Under the pieces are notes generated by a model that saw only the letters and a program-made list of their open reading frames with translations, searched no databases and was not told the origin of the DNA. From Tannerella sp. (GTDB taxonomy: Bacteria > Bacteroidota > Bacteroidia > Bacteroidales > Tannerellaceae), in contig JAIRZY010000078.1 of assembly GCA_031266995.1 (NCBI GenBank), forward strand, positions 1 to 33,144: 33,144 bases of DNA. Direction: 5' to 3'. Positions 7,260 to 32,924 of this stretch are shown piece by piece. The stretch's first letter is position 1, and each line of letters starts with the position of its first letter. The translations under genes and the position numbers were made by a program.

Positions 7260-7474
7260 CGCACGGGATTTTTTTCATTCCGTGCGGAACGCTTTTCATC
7301 CCGTGCGGGATTTTTTCCATCCCGTACGGAACGCTTTTCATCCCGTGCAGGATTTTTTTCATCCCGTGCGGAACACTTTTCATTCCGTGCAGATTTTTTT
7401 TCATCCCGTGCGGAACGCTTTTCATTCCGTGCAGGATTTTTTTCATCCCGCACGGAACGGATTTCATCCCGTTC
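7260..7474. repeat. Intergenic tandem array, exact 21-bp period (array A)
   Basis: Ten units at exactly 21-bp spacing: the core CAT(C/T)CCG begins at 7276, 7297, 7318, 7339, 7360, 7381, 7402, 7423, 7444 and 7465. Two flavours alternate, one with a T-run (GGATTTTTTTCAT) and one with GAACGCTTTTCAT, giving a 42-bp higher-order repeat. At the joints lie short palindromes such as ATCCCGTGCGGGAT and TTCCGTGCGGAA. The array fills the middle of a 585-bp gap (7142-7726) between tamL and the topoisomerase gene. The rest of that gap shows nothing recognisable apart from the promoter at 7682. Several ORFs cross the array on both strands only because 21 is a multiple of three. Confidence 0.9.
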
Positions 7475-14563: not shown

Positions 14564-14610
14564 CGGGAAAGAAATTCAAAGATTCAAAAATTCAAAGATT
14601 CGGAGTATCT

Positions 14611-14654
14611 CCTCTGTGTTTCTCCGTGTAACTTTTCTTTTTCTTACACAGAGG
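14611..14654. repeat. Inverted repeat downstream of the acyltransferase
   Basis: CCTCTGTGT (14611-14619) and ACACAGAGG (14646-14654) form a 9-bp stem around a 26-nt T-rich loop that also holds CTCCGTGTAAC. The same words recur in the longer palindrome at 15010-15086. It is preceded by an ATTCAAAGATTC simple repeat (14574-14601). It could help end transcription, but no T-run follows the stem. Confidence 0.6.
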
Positions 14655-14665
14655 ATGAAAACTCA

Positions 14666-14952
14666 GGAACAGGCTCCGGCTCTGAACGGATACGCTGTAT
14701 CCGGTCGGAATCGGTTCCGGTTCTGAAAAGATACGCTGTATCTGATCGGAATCGGTTCCGGTTCTGAAAAGATACGGCGTATCCGGTCGGAATCGACTCC
14801 GGTTCTGAAAAGATACGCTGTATCTGATCGGAATCGGCTCCGGTTCTGAAAAGTTACGACAGAACTGATCGGAATCGGCTCCGGTTCTGAAAAGTTCTGA
14901 CGGAACTGATCGGAATTGACTCCGGTTCTGAAAAGTTCTGACGGAACTGCCC
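14666..14952. repeat. Intergenic 41-bp tandem array with variable hairpins (array B)
   Basis: Seven consecutive 41-bp units start at 14666, 14707, 14748, 14789, 14830, 14871 and 14912. Each begins GGAATCGG(C/T)TCCGG, an imperfect palindrome, then TTCTGAAAAG, then a second hairpin. That hairpin is GATAC-GCT-GTATC in the early units and AGTTC-TGACG-GAACT in the last two. The outer base pair changes from A-T to G-C in both arms in unit 1, and unit 5 keeps a shorter AGTT/AACT stem. The array lies in a 710-bp gap (14564-15273) between convergent genes and contains no convincing ORF. Confidence 0.92.
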
Positions 14953-15009
14953 GGAATCTTAAAGATTCAAAGATTCGGGGAACATGGAGATATGCAATAG
15001 ACAAATATA

Positions 15010-15102
15010 AACACAGAGGCACGGAGAGCACGGAGAATACACTGCGTTCGCAGTGTTTTTCTTTGTGTCCTCTGTGTCTCCGTGTTAATAACCTGTTTTT
15101 TT
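15010..15102 (+). terminator. Long imperfect palindrome followed by a T-run
   Basis: AACACAGAGGCACGGAG on the left is mirrored by CTCTGTGTCTCCGTGTT on the right (15010-15086), around a perfect inner hairpin CACTGCG-TT-CGCAGTG. A T7 run follows at 15096-15102, so it could stop transcription leaving the parC operon. I recall similar CACAGAGG/CACGGAG palindromes as dispersed repeats in other genomes. Whether this one is a terminator or such a repeat is not settled by sequence alone. Confidence 0.5.
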
Positions 15103-15144
15103 ATATCACACAAAACCGTTCAGTATAAAGTATAAAACATATCC

Positions 15145-15224
15145 GGCGGAACTGCCCGGAATCGGCTCCGGTTCTGAAAAGTTACGGCGTATCTGCCCGG
15201 AACAGGCTCCGTCCGGCCTGAAAA
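15145..15224. repeat. Second, short copy of the 41-bp repeat (array B')
   Basis: One full unit (15158-15198) with flanking partial units repeats the array B sequence about 190 bp further on, in the same orientation. Its hairpin arms are mixed (AGTTAC on the left, GTATCT on the right), as if recombined from the two forms in array B. ATCTTTGAATCTTTGAATTC simple repeats follow up to leuB. Confidence 0.85.
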
Positions 15225-15273: not shown

Positions 15274-16359
15274 TCAGGACCCGGTTTTTTCCGAAAGGAT
15301 ATATTCCGCAATCCGGTCGCCGACGTCGGAGGTGGAGTGTGCCGTGCCGCCGTCGGGCGCAATATCGCCCGTGACGATGCCGCTGCTCATCGACGCGTCG
15401 ACGGCCCGGCGCACGAGGGCGCCCTCGTCCGTCAGGCGGAAGGCGTATTCGAACATCAGCGCGGCGGAAAGGATCGCCGCCAGCGGATTGGCGATGTTCC
15501 GCCCGGCGGCCTGCGGATAGGAGCCGTGGACGGGTTCGAACACCGACGTGTGTATCCCGACGGAGGCCGAGGGCAACATGCCGAGCGAGCCGGTGATGAC
15601 GGACGCCTCGTCGGTCAGGATGTCGCCGAACATGTTTTCCGTCACCAGCACGTCGAAGCTCCCCGGCCACTGTATGAGGCGCATCGCGGCATTGTCGACA
15701 AACATGTATTCCGTCTCCACGCCGGGATATTCCCTCTCGATCGCCTGCGCCACCTGGCGCCAGAGCCGCGAGGTGGCCAGGACGTTGGCCTTGTCGACCA
15801 CCGTCAGCTTGCGGCGGCGCGCCGCGGCGTATCCGTATGCCAGGCGGAGGATGCGCTCGATCTCGTCGCGCGAATACACGCACGTGTCATACGCCGTCTG
15901 CCCGTCTTCGCTCCGTCCCTGCGGACGTCCGAAGTATATCCCGCCCGTCAGCTCGCGGATGCACATCAGGTCGACGCCCGCGATCAGTCCGGAGCGAAGC
16001 GGCGAGCGATCGAGCAGCGAGGGAAACGCCGTCACGGGGCGTATGTTGGCATACAGCCCCAGCCGCCGGCGCATAGCCAGCAGGCCCTGCTCGGGGCGCA
16101 CCGTGGCCGAGGGGTCGCTGTCGTACTCCGGCGCGCCGATGGCGCCGAAGAGCACGGCGTCGCTCTGCATGCACAGCTCGTGCGTCGCCTCGGGATACGG
16201 GCTGCCCGTCGCCTCGATGGCGCACGCCCCGACCGGCGCCTCGCGCCACGCCAGCTCGTGACCGCAGCGGCGGCAGACGGCCTTCACCGCCTTCATCGCC
16301 TGCGCCGTCACCTCAGGCCCGATGCCGTCGCCCGGCAGGACGGCTATGTTCAGCTTCAT
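15274..16359 (-). CDS. leuB: 3-isopropylmalate dehydrogenase LeuB
   Basis: NAD-dependent oxidative decarboxylase that turns 3-isopropylmalate into 2-oxoisocaproate, the third stage of leucine synthesis. Motifs: LPGDGIGPEV at the N-terminus, the catalytic lysine region VDKANVLATSRLW, NMFGDILTDEAS with metal-binding aspartates, and EPVHGSYPQAAGRNIANP near the NAD site. At 361 residues it has the usual length. It is the last gene of the minus-strand leu operon and starts 5 bp after mgsA. It may also oxidise the citramalate-derived intermediate if the synthase paralogue upstream makes citramalate. Confidence 0.95.
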   Translation of the reverse strand: MKLNIAVLPGDGIGPEVTAQAMKAVKAVCRRCGHELAWREAPVGACAIEATGSPYPEATHELCMQSDAVLFGAIGAPEYDSDPSATVRPEQGLLAMRRRLGLYANIRPVTAFPSLLDRSPLRSGLIAGVDLMCIRELTGGIYFGRPQGRSEDGQTAYDTCVYSRDEIERILRLAYGYAAARRRKLTVVDKANVLATSRLWRQVAQAIEREYPGVETEYMFVDNAAMRLIQWPGSFDVLVTENMFGDILTDEASVITGSLGMLPSASVGIHTSVFEPVHGSYPQAAGRNIANPLAAILSAALMFEYAFRLTDEGALVRRAVDASMSSGIVTGDIAPDGGTAHSTSDVGDRIAEYILSEKTGS

Positions 16360-16364
16360 GTGTC

Positions 16365-16817
16365 CTATCTTTTAAAATATACATACTTGGGTTCCATGGG
16401 GACGTACGAGTCGTCGTCCCACAGGGCGCTGGTCAGCATCAGGTCGGCGCTGTAGCGGTTGCAGGCGATGGGGATGTTGTGCACCCTGCACTGCCGGAGC
16501 AGCATCTGAATGTCGGCCTCGTGCGGCTGTGGATTGAGGTCGTCGATCAGGAAAATGGCCAGATTGATCTCCTTGCGCACCACCATGGCGGCAATCTCGG
16601 CATCGCCTCCGAGCGGGCCCGAGTGCATGCAGGTGATGTCGGTCTCTATGCCCTTGTCGTGGAAGGCGCCGGCGATCAGTCCTCCCGTAGTCCCGGTACA
16701 TATAAGATGATGATGCGAGAGAAACTCGGCGTTGTGGAGCGCCCATTCCACCATGTCCGCCTTACGCCTGTCGTGCGCTACCAGCGCGATTGCTAATTTT
16801 TTGTTCATAATGTTCAT
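16365..16817 (-). CDS. mgsA: Methylglyoxal synthase MgsA
   Basis: Converts dihydroxyacetone phosphate to methylglyoxal and phosphate, a bypass of lower glycolysis that frees phosphate. Recognised by IALVAHDRRKADM at the N-terminus, ATP-grasp-free phosphate-site TGTTGGL, and SGPLGGD with the catalytic Asp72. Further along are Asp92 or Asp93 and His99 in DDLNPQPHEADIQ, in the same register as E. coli Asp71, Asp91 and His98. It is 150 residues, a normal size. A second ATG three codons in (16808) is an equally good start. It sits inside the leu operon, 64 bp after the synthase paralogue and 5 bp before leuB, which is not an arrangement I would predict from pathway logic. Confidence 0.94.
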   Translation of the reverse strand: MNIMNKKLAIALVAHDRRKADMVEWALHNAEFLSHHHLICTGTTGGLIAGAFHDKGIETDITCMHSGPLGGDAEIAAMVVRKEINLAIFLIDDLNPQPHEADIQMLLRQCRVHNIPIACNRYSADLMLTSALWDDDSYVPMEPKYVYFKR

Positions 16818-16881
16818 CAGTTAATATGGTTTCTTCCGGCGCCGGGGTTCCGTATGCCTCTCCCCGGCCGCGCCGTGTAAT

Positions 16882-18393
16882 TTATCGTTCTATCCTGTTC
16901 AGCATCTTCACGGTCGCCTTGATGGCCGCCTCCATCTGGTCGGCATCCAGTCCGCGCGTCTTAAACTCCGCACCTTCGTGACGCCAGCTGATGATGGTCT
17001 GCACGAAGGCATCCGTGCGCCCGCCGGGCGGGATCGAGACGGCATAGTTCGTCAGCATCGGAAAAGGACGCCCCAGAGACTTGTAAATCTTGCGGAGCGC
17101 GCGCACGAAGGCGTCATACTGCCCGTCGCCCGTTGCCGTTTCCTCGTAGGCCGTGCCGTGGATTTCAATCTTCAGCGTCGCCACCGGCCTTAATCCCTGC
17201 GTCAAAGATAGGGAATAATTCAATATCCTGATATTATTCTCCGGCGTATCCTGCTGCAGCACGTCGGAAACGATATAGGGCAAGTCCTCCTGAGTGACGA
17301 TCTCCTTCTTGTCGCCCAGCTCGATGACGCGCTCGGTGACCTTGCGCATGTCGTCTTCCGTCAGTTCGATTCCGAGCATTTCGAGGTTCATGCGTATATT
17401 GGCCCGTCCGGACGTCTTGCCGAGGGCATATTCGCGCATGCGCCCGAAGCGTTCGGGTATCAGGTCGTTGCAGTAGAGGCTGTTTTTGCTGTCGCCGTCG
17501 GCATGTACGCCCGCGCACTGCGTGAACACGTGCTCGCCGACGATCGGGCTGTTGGGCGCGACGTGTACGCCCGAATAGGCTTCGATCGTCTTGCTGACGC
17601 GGGTGATGCGGTCTTCGTTGACGGACGTCCGCATCTTCAACTGGTCGTGTATCACGGCCACGACACTGCTCAGCGGAGCATTGCCGGCGCGTTCGCCCAG
17701 CCCGTTGACCGTCGCGTGTATGCCGCGGATACCGGCACGGATGGCGGCATACGCGTTTGCCACCGCCAGGCCGTAGTCGTTGTGCGCGTGGAAGTCAAAA
17801 TGCACGCCCGGATAGCGCGCCGTCATGTCGCGGCAGTACGCATACGCCTTTTCCGGATTCAGCACGCCCAGCGTGTCGGGCAGCATGATGCGCTTCAGCG
17901 GCAGCCTGACCAGCGCGTCCGTGAGCCGGTACACGTATTCGGGCGACTGCTGCATGCCGTTCGACCAGTCTTCGAGGTAGACGTTGACGGCGATGCCCAT
18001 CTGCCCGGCCATTTCCGTTTCGCGGACGATGTCGGCGATGTGCTGCTCCGGCGTCTTGCGGAGCTGTTCGGTCAGATGCCTGTACGAACCTTTACAGAGC
18101 AGGTTCACCACCTGGCAGCCGGCAGAGCTGATCCACCGCAGCGACTCGCCGCCGTCGATAAAGCCCAAAACCTCCACGCGCGGCAGGCAGCCGGCCTGCG
18201 ACGCCCACTGCGCAATCTTCTTCACCGAATCGAACTCGCCTTTCGAGACGCGGGCAGAGCCTGTCTCGATGCGGTCTACATTCAGCTCGTTGAGCAGCAG
18301 GCGGGCGATAGCCTTTTTTTCCTGCCTCGAGAAGGAGACACCGTTGGTCTGCTCGCCGTCGCGCAGGGTAGTATCTAAAAGTTCTATCATCAT
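16882..18393 (-). CDS. 2-isopropylmalate/(R)-citramalate synthase paralogue
   Basis: A second member of the LeuA/CimA family in this operon, condensing acetyl-CoA with a 2-oxo acid. Seen: TLRDGEQTNGVSFS (metal and catalytic region), DFHAHNDYGLAVANAYAA (HxH metal ligands), NGLGERAGNAPLSSV, and a C-terminal regulatory (LeuA-dimer-like) domain from about residue 375. It is 503 residues. Because a canonical leuA lies at the head of the operon, this copy is more likely a citramalate synthase using pyruvate, which would allow isoleucine synthesis through LeuCD and LeuB. That specificity is inference; a homocitrate synthase or a second isopropylmalate synthase is possible. It starts 13 bp after the leuD stop. 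Confidence 0.85.
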   Translation of the reverse strand: MMIELLDTTLRDGEQTNGVSFSRQEKKAIARLLLNELNVDRIETGSARVSKGEFDSVKKIAQWASQAGCLPRVEVLGFIDGGESLRWISSAGCQVVNLLCKGSYRHLTEQLRKTPEQHIADIVRETEMAGQMGIAVNVYLEDWSNGMQQSPEYVYRLTDALVRLPLKRIMLPDTLGVLNPEKAYAYCRDMTARYPGVHFDFHAHNDYGLAVANAYAAIRAGIRGIHATVNGLGERAGNAPLSSVVAVIHDQLKMRTSVNEDRITRVSKTIEAYSGVHVAPNSPIVGEHVFTQCAGVHADGDSKNSLYCNDLIPERFGRMREYALGKTSGRANIRMNLEMLGIELTEDDMRKVTERVIELGDKKEIVTQEDLPYIVSDVLQQDTPENNIRILNYSLSLTQGLRPVATLKIEIHGTAYEETATGDGQYDAFVRALRKIYKSLGRPFPMLTNYAVSIPPGGRTDAFVQTIISWRHEGAEFKTRGLDADQMEAAIKATVKMLNRIER

Positions 18394-18406
18394 GAATCTT
18401 CAAATC

Positions 18407-19000
18407 TTAAACTTTACACATGCCCGCTTCGTACGCTTCGATTTTATCTTTCCGGCTCAGCAGGTAGTCAATGTTGTCCAGCCCCTGCAGGAGGCAGTCG
18501 CGCTTGCGGGCGTTGATTTCGAACGTTTCCGAACGGCCGTCGGCGTTGCAGGTAATCCGCCGGTTTTCGAGGTCGACCGTGAGCGTTGTTGCCGGGTCAT
18601 TTGCGACGGCGGCAAAGACGCCGGCCAGAAACGCGGGCGAAACGACGACCGGCAGGACGCCGTTGTTCAGCGCATTGCCCTTGAAGATGTCGGCAAAGAA
18701 ACTGCTCACGACCACGCGGAAACCATATCCGGCAATCGCCCAGGCGGCATGTTCGCGGCTCGACCCGCTGCCGAAATTCTTCCCCGCGACGAGAATCGCA
18801 CCCTTATATCGACCCTGATTGAGGACGAAGCCGGGATTCGGATTCCCTTCCCTGTCGTATCGCCAGTCGTAAAACAGATTGTCGCCGAAGCCCTCGCGTG
18901 TGGTGGCCTTCAGGAAGCGTGCCGGTATGATCTGATCCGTATCCACATTCTCCAGCGGGAGAGGCACGCAGGTGGATGTTAATGTAATAAATTTGTCCAT
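18407..19000 (-). CDS. leuD: 3-isopropylmalate dehydratase small subunit LeuD
   Basis: Swivelling-domain subunit of isopropylmalate isomerase, partner of LeuC. The N-terminus [18 protein letters not shown] and the core [17 protein letters not shown] are diagnostic. At 197 residues it is a full-length LeuD. The gene is intact and precedes the synthase paralogue by 13 bp. Unusually, it is separated from leuC by 519 bp occupied by an inserted, decayed four-helix-bundle cassette, with no clear TAnnTTTG promoter in the gap. Its expression may therefore depend on read-through from leuC. Confidence 0.95.
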
Positions 19001-19008
19001 AAATAATC

Positions 19009-19515
19009 AATTAGACAATTAGCAAATTAGTAAATGCGAGAATTAGCAAATGAGAGAATGTGGAAATACAAAAAACTCTCTTTATTTGCTCATTGCCCAA
19101 TTTGCTCATTGTATTCATTCTCTTTTTGTTTTTGCTGTACTTATTATTTTGTTAATAATACATTTCAATTCCTTTACTCTATCCGGCAGTTTATCGTCAA
19201 AATTATAACTCTCCGAATATTTACATAGCAAGAGTCAATATTCTGTTTCATCCGCTTCCTTTGCCGCAATTTTAAACTTGTGCATAAATCAAGCTTACTT
19301 TCACTGTTTTGAGCTTCCCAAATATTAGCACCAATAGAAATTCCACTCTTTTGCAGTTGTTTGGAAACAACATATTTTTGAGCTTTTCCAGCGACTCCGT
19401 ATATTGAATGATGTCCAAAGCAAATTTGAAACTCAAGTCGACCACCTTATTGCCCGTTTCATCCATAATAACCTCCATTCTATCTCATTCTCTCATTTGC
19501 TAATTGTCTAATTTG
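19009..19515. mobile_element. Inserted cassette with inverted-repeat ends between leuC and leuD
   Basis: AATTAGCAAATGAGAGAATG at 19041-19060 has a perfect inverted copy at 19486-19505. AATTAG/GCAAATTAG simple repeats extend both ends to the borders of leuD and leuC. The interior is visibly AT-rich compared with the GC-rich leu genes and holds only a broken four-helix-bundle gene. No transposase is present, so this is not a classical insertion sequence. The 23S intervening-sequence protein family is known as stray elements in rRNA and elsewhere; mobility here is inferred from the position and the ends. Confidence 0.6.
19115..19478 (-). pseudogene. Decayed four-helix-bundle (23S intervening-sequence protein) gene
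   Basis: Reading the minus strand across three frames reconstructs a typical member of the four-helix-bundle/IVP family. Frame 1 gives KVVDLSFKFALDIIQYTESL. After a 1-nt loss near 19384, frame 2 gives YVVSKQLQKSGISIGANI, then WEAQNSESKLD. After another 1-nt loss in a T-run near 19294, frame 3 gives FMHKFKIAAKEADETEY. There TGA stands where the family has the Trp codon TGG, and the reading continues LLLCKYSESYNFDDKLPDRV to a natural TGA at 19115. So there are two frameshifts and one nonsense change. The 68-residue ORF in the track (19272-19478) is only the first fragment. The family role is unclear. Confidence 0.85.
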
Positions 19516-19519
19516 CTAA

Positions 19520-20914
19520 TTACCCCATTATCCTGGGATCGGTAATCTTTCCCGTGACGGCGGCAGCGGCAGCGACCAGAGGCCCGGCCAGCAACGTTCG
19601 TGCGCCGGGACCCTGGCGTCCTTCAAAATTGCGGTTCGAAGTCGAGACCGCATACCTGCCGGCCGGCACCTTGTCGTCATTCATCGCCAGACACGCCGAG
19701 CAGCCCGGCTGACGCAGTTCAAACCCGGCCTCGGCCAGTATCCGGTCGATACCCCCGGCGCGAATCTGTTTTTCCACCGCCCAACTGCCGGGCACGAGCC
19801 ACGCCGTCACGCCCGCCGCTTTCTTTTTCCCCTTGACAACAGAGGCAAACGCGCGAAAATCCTCGATACGGCCGTTCGTGCAACTGCCCAGAAACACGTA
19901 GTCGACGGGCTTTCCGGCAATCGGTTCGCCGGCTTTGAAGCCCATGTAGTCGAGCGCTTTCCGGAAAGATGCGCGACCTGCCGCGTCGATGCTTTCGAGC
20001 GTCGGGATGGTCTCGCCGATGCCGATGCCCATGCCCGGATTCGTGCCGTAGGTGATCATCGGCTCGATGTCTTCGGCGCGAAAGGAAACTTCGCGGTCGA
20101 ACACGGCGCCATCGTCCGTGCGAAGCGTACACCAGTATGCCACTGCCCGGTTCCAGTCGTCGCCTTTGGGTGCAAACTCGGCATCTTTCAGGTAAGCGAA
20201 CGTCACGTCGTCCGGTGCAATCATGCCGCCGCGCGCGCCCATCTCGATGGAGAGGTTGCAGAGCGTGAGGCGTTCGTCCATGGTCATACGGCGGATGGTT
20301 TCGCCGGCGTATTCGACGAAGTAGCCTGTTGCACCGCCGGTGGTCATCTGCCGGATGAGGTAGAGGGCGACGTCCTTGGCCGTTACGCCCGGTTTCAGAC
20401 GGCCGTCGACGGTGATGCGCATGGTTTCGGGCTTCTGCTGCAGGAGACATTGCGTAGCGAGGGTCATTTCGACTTCGCTCGTGCCGATGCCGAAGGCGAT
20501 GGCGCCCATCGCGCCGTGGGTAGAGGTATGGCTGTCACCGCAGACGATGGTCATGCCCGGCTGCGTCAGGCCGTTTTCGGGGCCGACGACGTGGATGATG
20601 CCGTTTTTCGGATGCAGCAGACCGTAGTGCGTCAGGCCGAAATCGGCGGCATTCTTTTTCAGCGTGTCGACCTGATTACGCGACACGGCGTCTTCGATGG
20701 GTCTGTCCTGTTCCAGCGTGGGTATGTTGTGGTCGGGCATGCAGGTGATCTGCTGCGGGCGGAAGGGTTTCAGCCCGCGCGTGCGCAGTCCGGCGAAAGC
20801 CTGCGGGCTTGTTACTTCGTGGCAGTAGAGGCGGTCGATGTACAACTGGACGGTGCCGTCCGGCAACGTGTCTACCACGTGTTTTCTCCAGATTTTTTCA
20901 AATAGAGTCTTCAT
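19520..20914 (-). CDS. leuC: 3-isopropylmalate dehydratase large subunit LeuC
   Basis: Aconitase-family subunit that holds the [4Fe-4S] cluster and isomerises 2- to 3-isopropylmalate together with LeuD. Motifs: [21 protein letters not shown] in the N-terminal half, the first cluster cysteine in [13 protein letters not shown], and the other two in [11 protein letters not shown]. At 464 residues it is the normal bacterial size. It starts 27 bp after the leuA stop and appears intact to its natural stop at 19520, right at the edge of the inserted cassette. Cotranscription with leuA is likely. Confidence 0.96.
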
Positions 20915-20941
20915 TTTCTCATGCGTTTTATTTACCGTATT

Positions 20942-22438
20942 TCATTTTGCAAATTTATTAATTGCATCGACAAAAGCCTCTACAGAAGCGGCAATAATAT
21001 CGGTGTTTGCCGAAAACCCGTAGTAGATATTGCCTTCGTACTCCACCTGGATGTGCACCTTCCCTATGTCGTCGCTTCCCTTGTTGATGGCCTGGATGAG
21101 AAATTCCTGAATCGTCATCTGGCGGTGGATGATGCTTTTGACGGCTTTGATGGCGGCATCGACCGGCCCGTTGCCCGATGCGGCCGATTCGAACCGCTCA
21201 CCGGCAATGTCGAGGCAGACGCTCGCCACGGGCTGCAGGCCGATGCCCGAAGTTACCTGCAGGTATTGCAGCTTGATGCGCTGCGACGAAGTGCGGTCTT
21301 TTCCGACCAGCAGCAGGATGTCGTCATCGCGGATATCTTTTTTCCCGTCGGCCAGCTTCAGGAAGTCTTCGTATACTTTATCCAGTTTTTCGGGTTCCAG
21401 CTTGACGCCGAGCAGGTTCAGGCGGTGCTTGAGGGCGGCGCGGCCGCTGCGGGCCGTCAGGACGATGGCGTTGTCGTCCAGTCCGATATCTTTCGGGTCG
21501 ATGATTTCGTAGCTTTCGCGGTTTTTCAGCACACCGTCCTGGTGTATGCCGGAGGAGTGTGCGAAGGCGTTGCGGCCGACGATGGCCTTGTTTGGCTGTA
21601 CGGGCATGTTCATCAGGCTTGATACCATGCGGCTGATGCCGTATATCTTGGTCGTGTTGATGTTCGTGTCGATGCCCGGCTCGCGGTGGCTCTTGAAGAT
21701 CATTGCGACTTCTTCGAGGGAGGTATTGCCGGCACGCTCGCCGATGCCGTTGACGGTGACTTCGACCTGCCGCGCGCCGCTGAGGACACCCTGAACTGTG
21801 TTGGCGGTGGCCATGCCGAGGTCGTTGTGGCAGTGGGTGGAGATGACGGCCTTGTGGATTCCGTCGACATGCTCGACGAGGTAGCGGATTTTGGCGGCAT
21901 ACTCGGCGGGCAGGCAGTAGCCAGTCGTGTCGGGGATGTTGACGGTCGTGGCGCCGGAACGGATCACGACTTCGACGACGCGCGCGAGGTATTCGTTGTC
22001 CGTCCGCCCGGCGTCTTCGCAGTAGAACTCGACGTCATCGACGTACTGCTTTGCATAGCGCGTGGCGGCAACGGCGCGTTCGAGGATTTCTTCGCGGCTG
22101 GAGTTGAATTTGTAGCGGATATGGTAGTCGGACGTGCCGATGCCCGTGTGGATACGCTTGCGTTTGGCGTGCCGGAGCGCTTCGAAGGCTACGTCGATGT
22201 CTTTCTCCACTGCACGGGTCAGGGCACAAATCGTCGGCCACGTGACGGCCTTCGATATCTCAATTACGCTGTTGAAATCGCCCGGACTTGAGACGGGAAA
22301 ACCAGCTTCGATTACATCGACGCCCAGTTCCTCGAGTGCTTCGGCTACCTGTATCTTCTCTACTGTGTTCAACTGGCAGCCGGGCACCTGCTCGCCGTCG
22401 CGCAGCGTTGTATCAAAAATGAATAATCTTTCTGACAT
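20942..22438 (-). CDS. leuA: 2-isopropylmalate synthase LeuA
   Basis: First committed enzyme of leucine synthesis, condensing acetyl-CoA and 2-oxoisovalerate. Seen: [16 protein letters not shown] at the N-terminus, [18 protein letters not shown] with the metal-binding Hx[18 protein letters not shown], and [11 protein letters not shown]-terminal allosteric domain from about residue 370 normally mediates leucine feedback. It is 498 residues. It heads the operon leuA-leuC-leuD-synthase paralogue-mgsA-leuB. No TAnnTTTG promoter is visible in the 108 bp upstream; that stretch instead holds an attenuator-like hairpin. Transcription may enter from the promoter of the small gene upstream (23093). Confidence 0.95.
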
Positions 22439-29768: not shown

Positions 29769-29789
29769 AGACCGTTCTCCGGTTTTCGT

Positions 29790-29984
29790 GCGACACGTTT
29801 CGCAAAACGCGGGAAACGTTTCGCAGAAAATGCGACACGTGTCGCAAAACACGGGAAACGTTTCGCAGAAAATGCGACACGTGTCGCAAAACGCGGGAAA
29901 CGTTTCGCAGAAAATGCGACACATGTCGCAAAACGCGGGAAACGTTTCGCAGAACGTGCGACGCATGTCGCAAAACGCGGGAAG
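29790..29984. repeat. Intergenic 42-bp palindrome array (array C)
   Basis: Units start at 29790, 29832, 29874, 29916 and 29958, the last one truncated. Each has two palindromes 21 bp apart centre to centre: GCGACACGTGTCGC (perfect in units 2 and 3; GCGACA/TGTCGC arms in unit 4) and GAAACGTTTC. The array fills the first half of a 434-bp gap (29724-30157). The second half is plain AT-rich sequence up to the next gene, with no promoter I can defend. ORFs through the array on both strands are artefacts of the period. Confidence 0.92.
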
Positions 29985-32606: not shown

Positions 32607-32924
32607 GAGACGCGATGCCGCGAGCGGGAAGGTTACATATACTGTATGTAAGTCTGCCGCCGCGGGCGGGAAGGTTACATATACAGTATGCAAGTCCGCC
32701 GCCGCGAGCGAGAAGGTTACATATACAGTATGCAAGTCCGCCGCCGCGAGCGGGAAGGTTACATATACAGTATGCAAGTCTGCCGCCGCGAGCGGGAAGG
32801 TTACATATACAGTATGCAAGTCCGCCGCCGCGGGCGAGAAGGTTACATATACTGTATGCAAGTCTGCCGCCGCGAGCGGGAAGGTTGCCTATGCAATAGG
32901 CAAGTCCGCCGATCGCGTCTCTAC
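32604..32924. repeat. 42-bp hairpin array bounded by 13-bp inverted repeats (array D)
   Basis: Seven units start at 32617 (39 bp), 32656, 32698, 32740, 32782, 32824 and 32866 (42 bp each), with GCCGCCGCGAGCGGGAAGG followed by a hairpin. The hairpin is TTACATA/TATGTAA in unit 1 and TTGCCTA/TAGGCAA in unit 7, both perfect. Units 2-6 have TTACATA/TATGCAA, one mismatch on the plus strand and a G-U pair on the minus strand. The array is enclosed by GTAGAGACGCGAT (32604-32616) and its exact reverse complement (32912-32924). It lies between the receptor gene and the SRP RNA promoter. Confidence 0.92.

Follow-up and report, generated by a model that had tools for sequence, protein, structure and literature searches.

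Bacterial genomes are generally thought to be poor in noncoding satellites. The nearest known kind to the class of repeat arrays described here is the minisatellite MITE BrickBuilt of Porphyromonas gingivalis, which has a 23-nt unit with predicted stem-loops and occurs as 19 elements in 2.35 Mb, with one sequence family per genome and no reported matches outside P. gingivalis (Klein et al., 2015; PMC4596501). A bacterial and archaeal survey found that few species exceed four satellites per Mb and described noncoding families spread by transposition as rare (Subirana and Messeguer, 2019; PMC6749651). Template switching creates and maintains hairpins and is an established source of paired changes in their arms (PMC8794818). 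Clustered intergenic palindromes are also characteristic of REP/BIME loci.

The locus of interest (array B) lies in a 33,144-bp stretch of DNA from the gut bacterium Tannerella sp. (the window, meaning the whole stretch that was analysed) and comprises seven tandem 41-bp units, the last truncated, at 14677–14963 (unit starts at 14677, 14718, 14759, 14800, 14841, 14882, and 14923, each period being exactly 41 bp). It is flanked by a gene for a lipid A biosynthesis acyltransferase (PF03279; 13679–14563, forward strand) and by a convergent gene of the isopropylmalate/isocitrate dehydrogenase family, probably leuB (PF00180; 15274–16359, reverse strand). The repeats are intergenic, noncoding, direct and without intervening spacers, and the 41-bp period is not divisible by three. 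A CRISPR array is ruled out, as the 41-mers are contiguous and there are no unique spacers. Beyond the truncated unit, other repeats (14964–15133), comprising ATTCAAAGATTC repeats and a CACAGAGGCACGGAG...CTCTGTGTCTCCGTG inverted-repeat element, break up the array, which continues after roughly 170 bp at about 15134–15211, with a core GTTACGGCGTATC at 15181–15193 that has a mismatched outer pair. Nested CACAGAGGCACGGAG...CTCTGTGTCTCCGTG elements occur at 14602–14660 and 15002–15097, the latter region splitting array B, and are abundant genome-wide. Downstream, the leucine biosynthesis cluster (15274–22438) includes an ORF that by eye resembles methylglyoxal synthase (16365–16817), as well as short repeats of 16-bp period (AATTAGCAAATGAGAG, ATTCTCTAATTTGCTA) at 19025–19059 and 19487–19521, one at either end of the stretch that separates the leuD-like from the leuC-like ORF.

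Array B and its relatives resemble BrickBuilt in being intergenic, noncoding, spacerless tandem repeats with predicted stem-loops and many genomic copies, in a member of the same bacterial order, and in that some copies lie inside elements with terminal inverted repeats (here, sister arrays with the 41-bp unit). They differ in having a 41- or 42-bp unit, two palindromes half a period apart and many unrelated palindrome sequences; array density in one congener is also far higher, and array B itself lacks terminal repeats. Compared with REP/BIME loci, the period and the sequence diversity are different and the Y1 (TnpA-REP) transposase is absent: a search of the window's genome (93% complete) gave no Y1_Tnp match, and a REP/RAYT origin is rejected.

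Each unit of array B contains a hairpin core. The cores of units 1–4 (14689–14701, 14730–14742, 14771–14783, and 14812–14824) are GATACGCTGTATC in units 1, 2, and 4 and GATACGGCGTATC in unit 3, and those of units 6 and 7 (14894–14906 and 14935–14947) are GTTCTGACGGAAC, so that the swap from GATAC/GTATC arms (units 1–4) to AGTTC/GAACT arms (units 6 and 7) reported in the preliminary description is confirmed for both forms. The outer pair was said to switch in both arms together; it is G-C in unit 1 and A-T in units 2 and 4–7, and in unit 3 it is a broken A.C, so that the arms do not switch jointly in every case, not even within array B. The spacer between hairpins was described as nearly constant, and there is indeed a single reading, TTCTGAAAAG, in all units other than unit 1 (CTCTGAACGG), but this ‘constant’ part of the unit harbours a second dyad, GAATCGGCTCCGGTTC; the centre of this dyad lies half a period (20.5 bp) away from the hairpin, and it recurs every 41 bp (as GAATCGGTTCCGGTTC at 14749–14764 in unit 2, for example). 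The best odd dyad of array B is matched in 35 of 42 cells, a value reached by 13 of 5000 column shuffles, and two-unit pieces fold far more stably than shuffled sequences on both the forward (z of -6.1 and -5.9) and the reverse strand (z of -4.3 and -3.1). An Rfam search of array B returned only sub-threshold matches, to miRNA families.

Unit 5, which had been taken for a local intermediate between the two forms, is not one. Its core GTTACGACAGAAC (14853–14865) is a chimera, GTTACG-A-CAGAAC, with the left arm of the GTTACGACGTAAC palindrome and the right arm of the GTTCTGACAGAAC palindrome, and the entire unit is identical, letter for letter over 41 bp, to units at three other loci (contigs C44, C185, and C205). 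The units nearest to unit 6 are on C126, C55, C205, and C44, and those nearest to unit 7 on C55 and C44. Units 1–4 belong to a GATAC subfamily that is also present on C103 and C256, unit 3 being two changes from a C103 unit. Given these matches elsewhere, the hairpin change within array B is the junction of two pre-existing subfamilies, and the proposal of module exchange is well supported. Mixing occurs in other arrays too: on C256 GTTACGACGTAAC adjoins GATACGGCGTATC, and an array on C90 mixes GAAAC and GAATC forms, including one mismatched mixture.

Across the window's genome (2.94 Mb in 284 contigs), the 41-bp frame is represented by about 89 units, 75 of them distinct, at about 20 loci. 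The orientation of the genes beside these arrays was left out of account, because a greedy ORF picker had selected antisense frames in this G+C-rich genome. A second group within this frame carries GAAAC/GTTTC or GAATC/GATTC hairpins. There are six perfect-palindrome arm states (GATACGGCGTATC, GTTACGACGTAAC, GTTCTGACAGAAC, GTTCCGACGGAAC, GAAACAATGTTTC, and GAATCAATGATTC), alongside arm chimeras. Within the 41-bp family the arms covary beyond chance, as the preliminary description had supposed: among 44 distinct units there are 73 cells with two-sided changes, whereas shuffles yield 34.0 ± 4.6. The covariation score rises from 0.171 in shuffles to 0.333 in the real units, and sliding the dyad register by 1–3 columns lowers it greatly. 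The individual pairs behave differently. The outer pair, over 70 distinct rotated units genome-wide, is A-T in 53, G.T in 9, A.C in 6, and G-C in 2. Among 52 locus-level cores, permutation predicts 26–28 matches at each of pairs 2 and 3, where 50 and 52, respectively, are observed; the observed and permuted counts are 34 and 17 for pair 4 and 50 and 27 for pair 6. The inner pair 5 is matched in 31 cores, compared with 31.9 by permutation, which is chance. The commonest group-1 core is GTTACG-A-CAGAAC (14 units at 8 loci), in which two inner pairs are broken. In the second dyad of the family, departures from pairing are almost all G.T as read on the written strand; these few independent changes hint at pairing at the RNA level in that dyad.

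The half-period arrangement of array B is common to the class. Shared-9-mer clustering of all units over-merged arrays, and palindrome statistics were accordingly computed on 64 nonredundant consensus units of 39–46 bp. The best palindrome score is 5.81, compared with 4.17 ± 0.10 in shuffles; 35 of the 64 units contain two palindromes (11.7 ± 3.0 in shuffles), and in 22 of those 35 a distance of 20, 20.5, or 21 bp separates the two centres. Three sister arrays within the window have a period of 42 bp. That at 7266–7472 (2 × 21 bp) has palindromes centred on 7283.5, 7304.5, and 7325.5, a spacing of exactly 21 bp, and successive palindromes differ in their arms (TTCCGTGCGGAA, ATCCCGTGCGGGAT, and CCGTACGG); it shows another paired swap, TTCCG/CGGAA followed by ATCCCG/CGGGAT at a distance of 21 bp. 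The array at 29789–29983 alternates a 16-bp perfect palindrome, TGCGACACGTGTCGCA, with GAAACGTTTC every 21.0 bp, and that at 32617–32911 has palindromes TTACATATACTGTATGTAA and CCGCCGCGGGCGG at a 21.0-bp distance. When dyads are picked on outer pairs alone, matching falls to chance (22–33%) at the one or two pairs closest to the centre and is 56–61% at the next pairs, which is expected of hairpin loops of 3–4 nt. The 41-bp family is an exception, in that its innermost dyad pair is matched as well (G-C or A-T).

Nearly all long arrays found by Tandem Repeats Finder in the window's genome have a period of 21, 41, or 42 bp. Because this sample had been chosen by matches, contigs were also picked regardless of matches, and 9 of the 14 arrays in 195 kb of these have a period of 21 or 42 bp. 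The same periods occur in four congeners (G004, G010, G014, and G016); no such arrays were found in small samples of three others (G009, G017, and G018), and, shorter arrays aside, no 41- or 42-bp array was found in five genomes of other families. A complete congener genome (G032; a single 3.01-Mb contig) was sampled as 20 evenly spaced stretches totalling 400 kb, which hold 60 arrays (about 150 per Mb), the longest exceeding 1 kb; 45 of them have a period of 41 or 42 bp, and the arrays cover 4.3% of the sample. The surveyed prokaryotic satellites similarly include dispersed tandem repeats with units longer than 30 nt, Leptospira interrogans being an example, but differ from the 60 arrays per 400 kb and the narrow period distribution seen here, a comparison in which the detection criteria differ (PMC6749651). 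Some 42-bp arrays may be coding, while the 41-bp arrays are unlikely to be. A literature search on tandem repeats in termite-gut Bacteroidales found nothing specific.

Several arrays of the 41-bp unit, and also arrays with quite different palindromes, are enclosed by inverted ends of the form CCCRAAATGTCCATT. Of the 41 genomes of the genus, 7 contain these ends. Exact 5-bp flanking duplications accompany 11 of 20 elements of the genus (3.9 expected), and no target duplication of another length was found at these 20. The end pattern was found in a collection of 84,980 species twice in the MAG Tannerella sp. Gx485_bin220, whose 134-bp elements contain a short palindrome train, and on one Oscillospiraceae contig; the latter, from MAG RGIG8730 of an unrelated phylum, is one exact element-end match that could reflect chance or transfer. 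The genus name used here is based on that one named Tannerella MAG, together with kinship labels from the genome search. The same ends flank a frameshifted IS1380-type transposase gene (PF13701) in congener G040, a decayed element, and a 251-aa transposase piece from G007 is assigned to IS1380 by NCBIfam NF033539 (E 1.7e-45; 155 bits, against a full-length cut-off of 180). The sister elements match the decayed element in their CCCRAAATGTCCATT ends and 5-bp target duplications; they differ from an IS1380 element in that the interior of the small elements is a palindrome train and not IS-derived. No transposase of the IS1380 family is detectable in the window's genome. Another family of miniature elements, whose ends resemble GGTTAATTCTTTTTTTGAGGTGCTATTATACT, adjoins 41-bp arrays of the GAAAC/GAATC group (contigs C31, C105, C61, and C21 of the same genome), and in congener G041 CCCRAAATGTCCATT ends surround a roughly 23-bp repeat that contains the palindrome CTTTGTCCGAACGAACAAAG; the BrickBuilt unit is likewise 23 nt. 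The ends of both miniature-element families are absent around array B in the window, and most arrays in the complete congener have no flanking terminal repeats; we therefore regard the satellite as independent of the element.

Relatedness among units inflates the covariation counts of the 41-bp family, so a wider test was needed. Across 125 arrays, dyad column pairs were compared with control column pairs of the same array at equal distance, a matched double change being one in which both columns are altered by the same mutation type, which keeps the Watson–Crick pair; each mutation type was counted once per column pair. Of the double changes in dyads, 65 are matched and 39 are not, compared with 35.4 and 51.4 in the scaled controls, giving a dyad/control ratio for matched doubles of 1.83 (95% CI 1.38–2.29, bootstrap over arrays). 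The ratio is 1.85 without the 41-bp family, and the paired change is therefore both real and general. At the same time, about two thirds of the within-array arm changes break a pair: hairpin arms in the complete congener show 39 matched doubles, 84 G.T singles, and 247 pair-breaking cells, and those in the window's genome 49 matched doubles, 130 G.T singles, 328 pair-breaking cells, and 7 doubles to G.T. Arms that vary independently and break pairing, which the preliminary description had set against its own proposal, are thus largely what single changes consist of, and paired changes are still in significant excess. There is no array-wise bias of G.T over A.C over 63 arrays (chi-squared 49.7 on 63 df), which speaks against one transcribed strand; selection at the RNA level through wobble asymmetry is rejected. 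Dyad columns have 531 types of single change and other columns 801; the lower variation in dyad columns fits purifying selection too, and the comparison is biased by the consensus-based choice of dyads. Loops show 10 exact inversions and 11 other changes of equal size, which is only suggestive of a template-switch signature.

We consider that array B is a noncoding hairpin minisatellite, evolving by duplication, exchange and template switching, and a member of a genus-specific 41/42-bp class (probability about 0.55). The unit of this class would tend toward two short palindromes about 20.5–21 bp apart. In single-stranded DNA exposed at replication, units could fold into hairpins, with slippage duplicating or deleting units, recombination shuffling them between arrays, and intrastrand template switching making the arms match; in some species the arrays would also have spread within IS1380-derived miniature elements. 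The ‘swap’ in array B would then be a GATAC-type run meeting a GTT...AAC-type run, both drawn from a genome-wide pool of modules, with unit 5 carrying a chimeric module that already existed. The arrays share with template-switch (quasipalindrome) mutations the concerted change of two arms, short loops and, more tentatively, loop inversion, and differ in that the published mutations concern individual hairpins of rRNA and coding genes and not paced arrays (PMC8794818; PMC8604942). An account by inheritance alone, in which a few founder units fixed the paired states, duplication spread them and nothing maintains the covariation, would agree with the mere six palindrome states of the 41-bp family and with identical 41-mers at several loci, but it is quite improbable, since many unrelated arrays show an excess of paired doubles, which persists once the 41-bp family is removed, and matched changes therefore keep arising.

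Compensatory change under selection, which would keep functional hairpins paired (as DNA cruciforms, as RNA stabiliser or terminator hairpins, or as dyad sites for dimeric proteins), is possible but on balance doubtful. Covariation well above that of shuffles and slid registers, the lesser variation of dyad columns, and the return of palindromes and half-period spacing in unrelated sequences would all be accommodated by it. Strict selection on pairing is not supported: pair 5 is at its permutation level, the group-1 core with the widest distribution is a chimera with broken pairs, and some two thirds of arm changes undo a pair. G.T and A.C show no strand asymmetry over arrays, there is no Rfam family, and palindromes differ from array to array, so that no single sequence-specific protein fits. 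The data fit weak selection on pairing or none. Slippage or template switching alone, on the other hand, does not account for the constant 41–42-bp period and the 20.5–21-bp pitch, which would correspond to about two helical turns. A factor that acts on hairpins of any sequence every two helical turns, such as a nucleoid protein, a hairpin nuclease, or a recombinase, might set this pitch and would be compatible with the hairpin-minisatellite explanation. Two observations point in that direction: 45 of the complete congener's 60 sampled arrays, and most of those in the window's genome, repeat every 41 or 42 bp, and dyad spacings cluster at 20–21 bp (21.0 bp in the other three arrays of the window); we nevertheless regard such a factor as unlikely, since no candidate was identified and the three congeners without such arrays, albeit in small samples, argue against it.

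With noncoding satellites making up about 4% of the sampled complete genome, this lineage runs against the view of bacterial genomes as holding few satellites. The arrays offer a natural experiment, with many independent hairpin arrays in which selection can be tested against hairpin-driven copying errors as the source of paired changes, and they caution against taking covariation among tandem repeats alone as evidence of a functional RNA. The arrays share a strict period and hairpin pitch although their sequences differ, and they invite the question of what holds the repeat length near four helical turns. As a tentative suggestion, the Tannerella-like lineage might possess a genome-wide satellite class defined by hairpin geometry and not by sequence, with freely swappable modules placed about two helical turns apart in 41–42-bp units and a factor, recognising pitch and not sequence, that multiplies the arrays or holds them in register.
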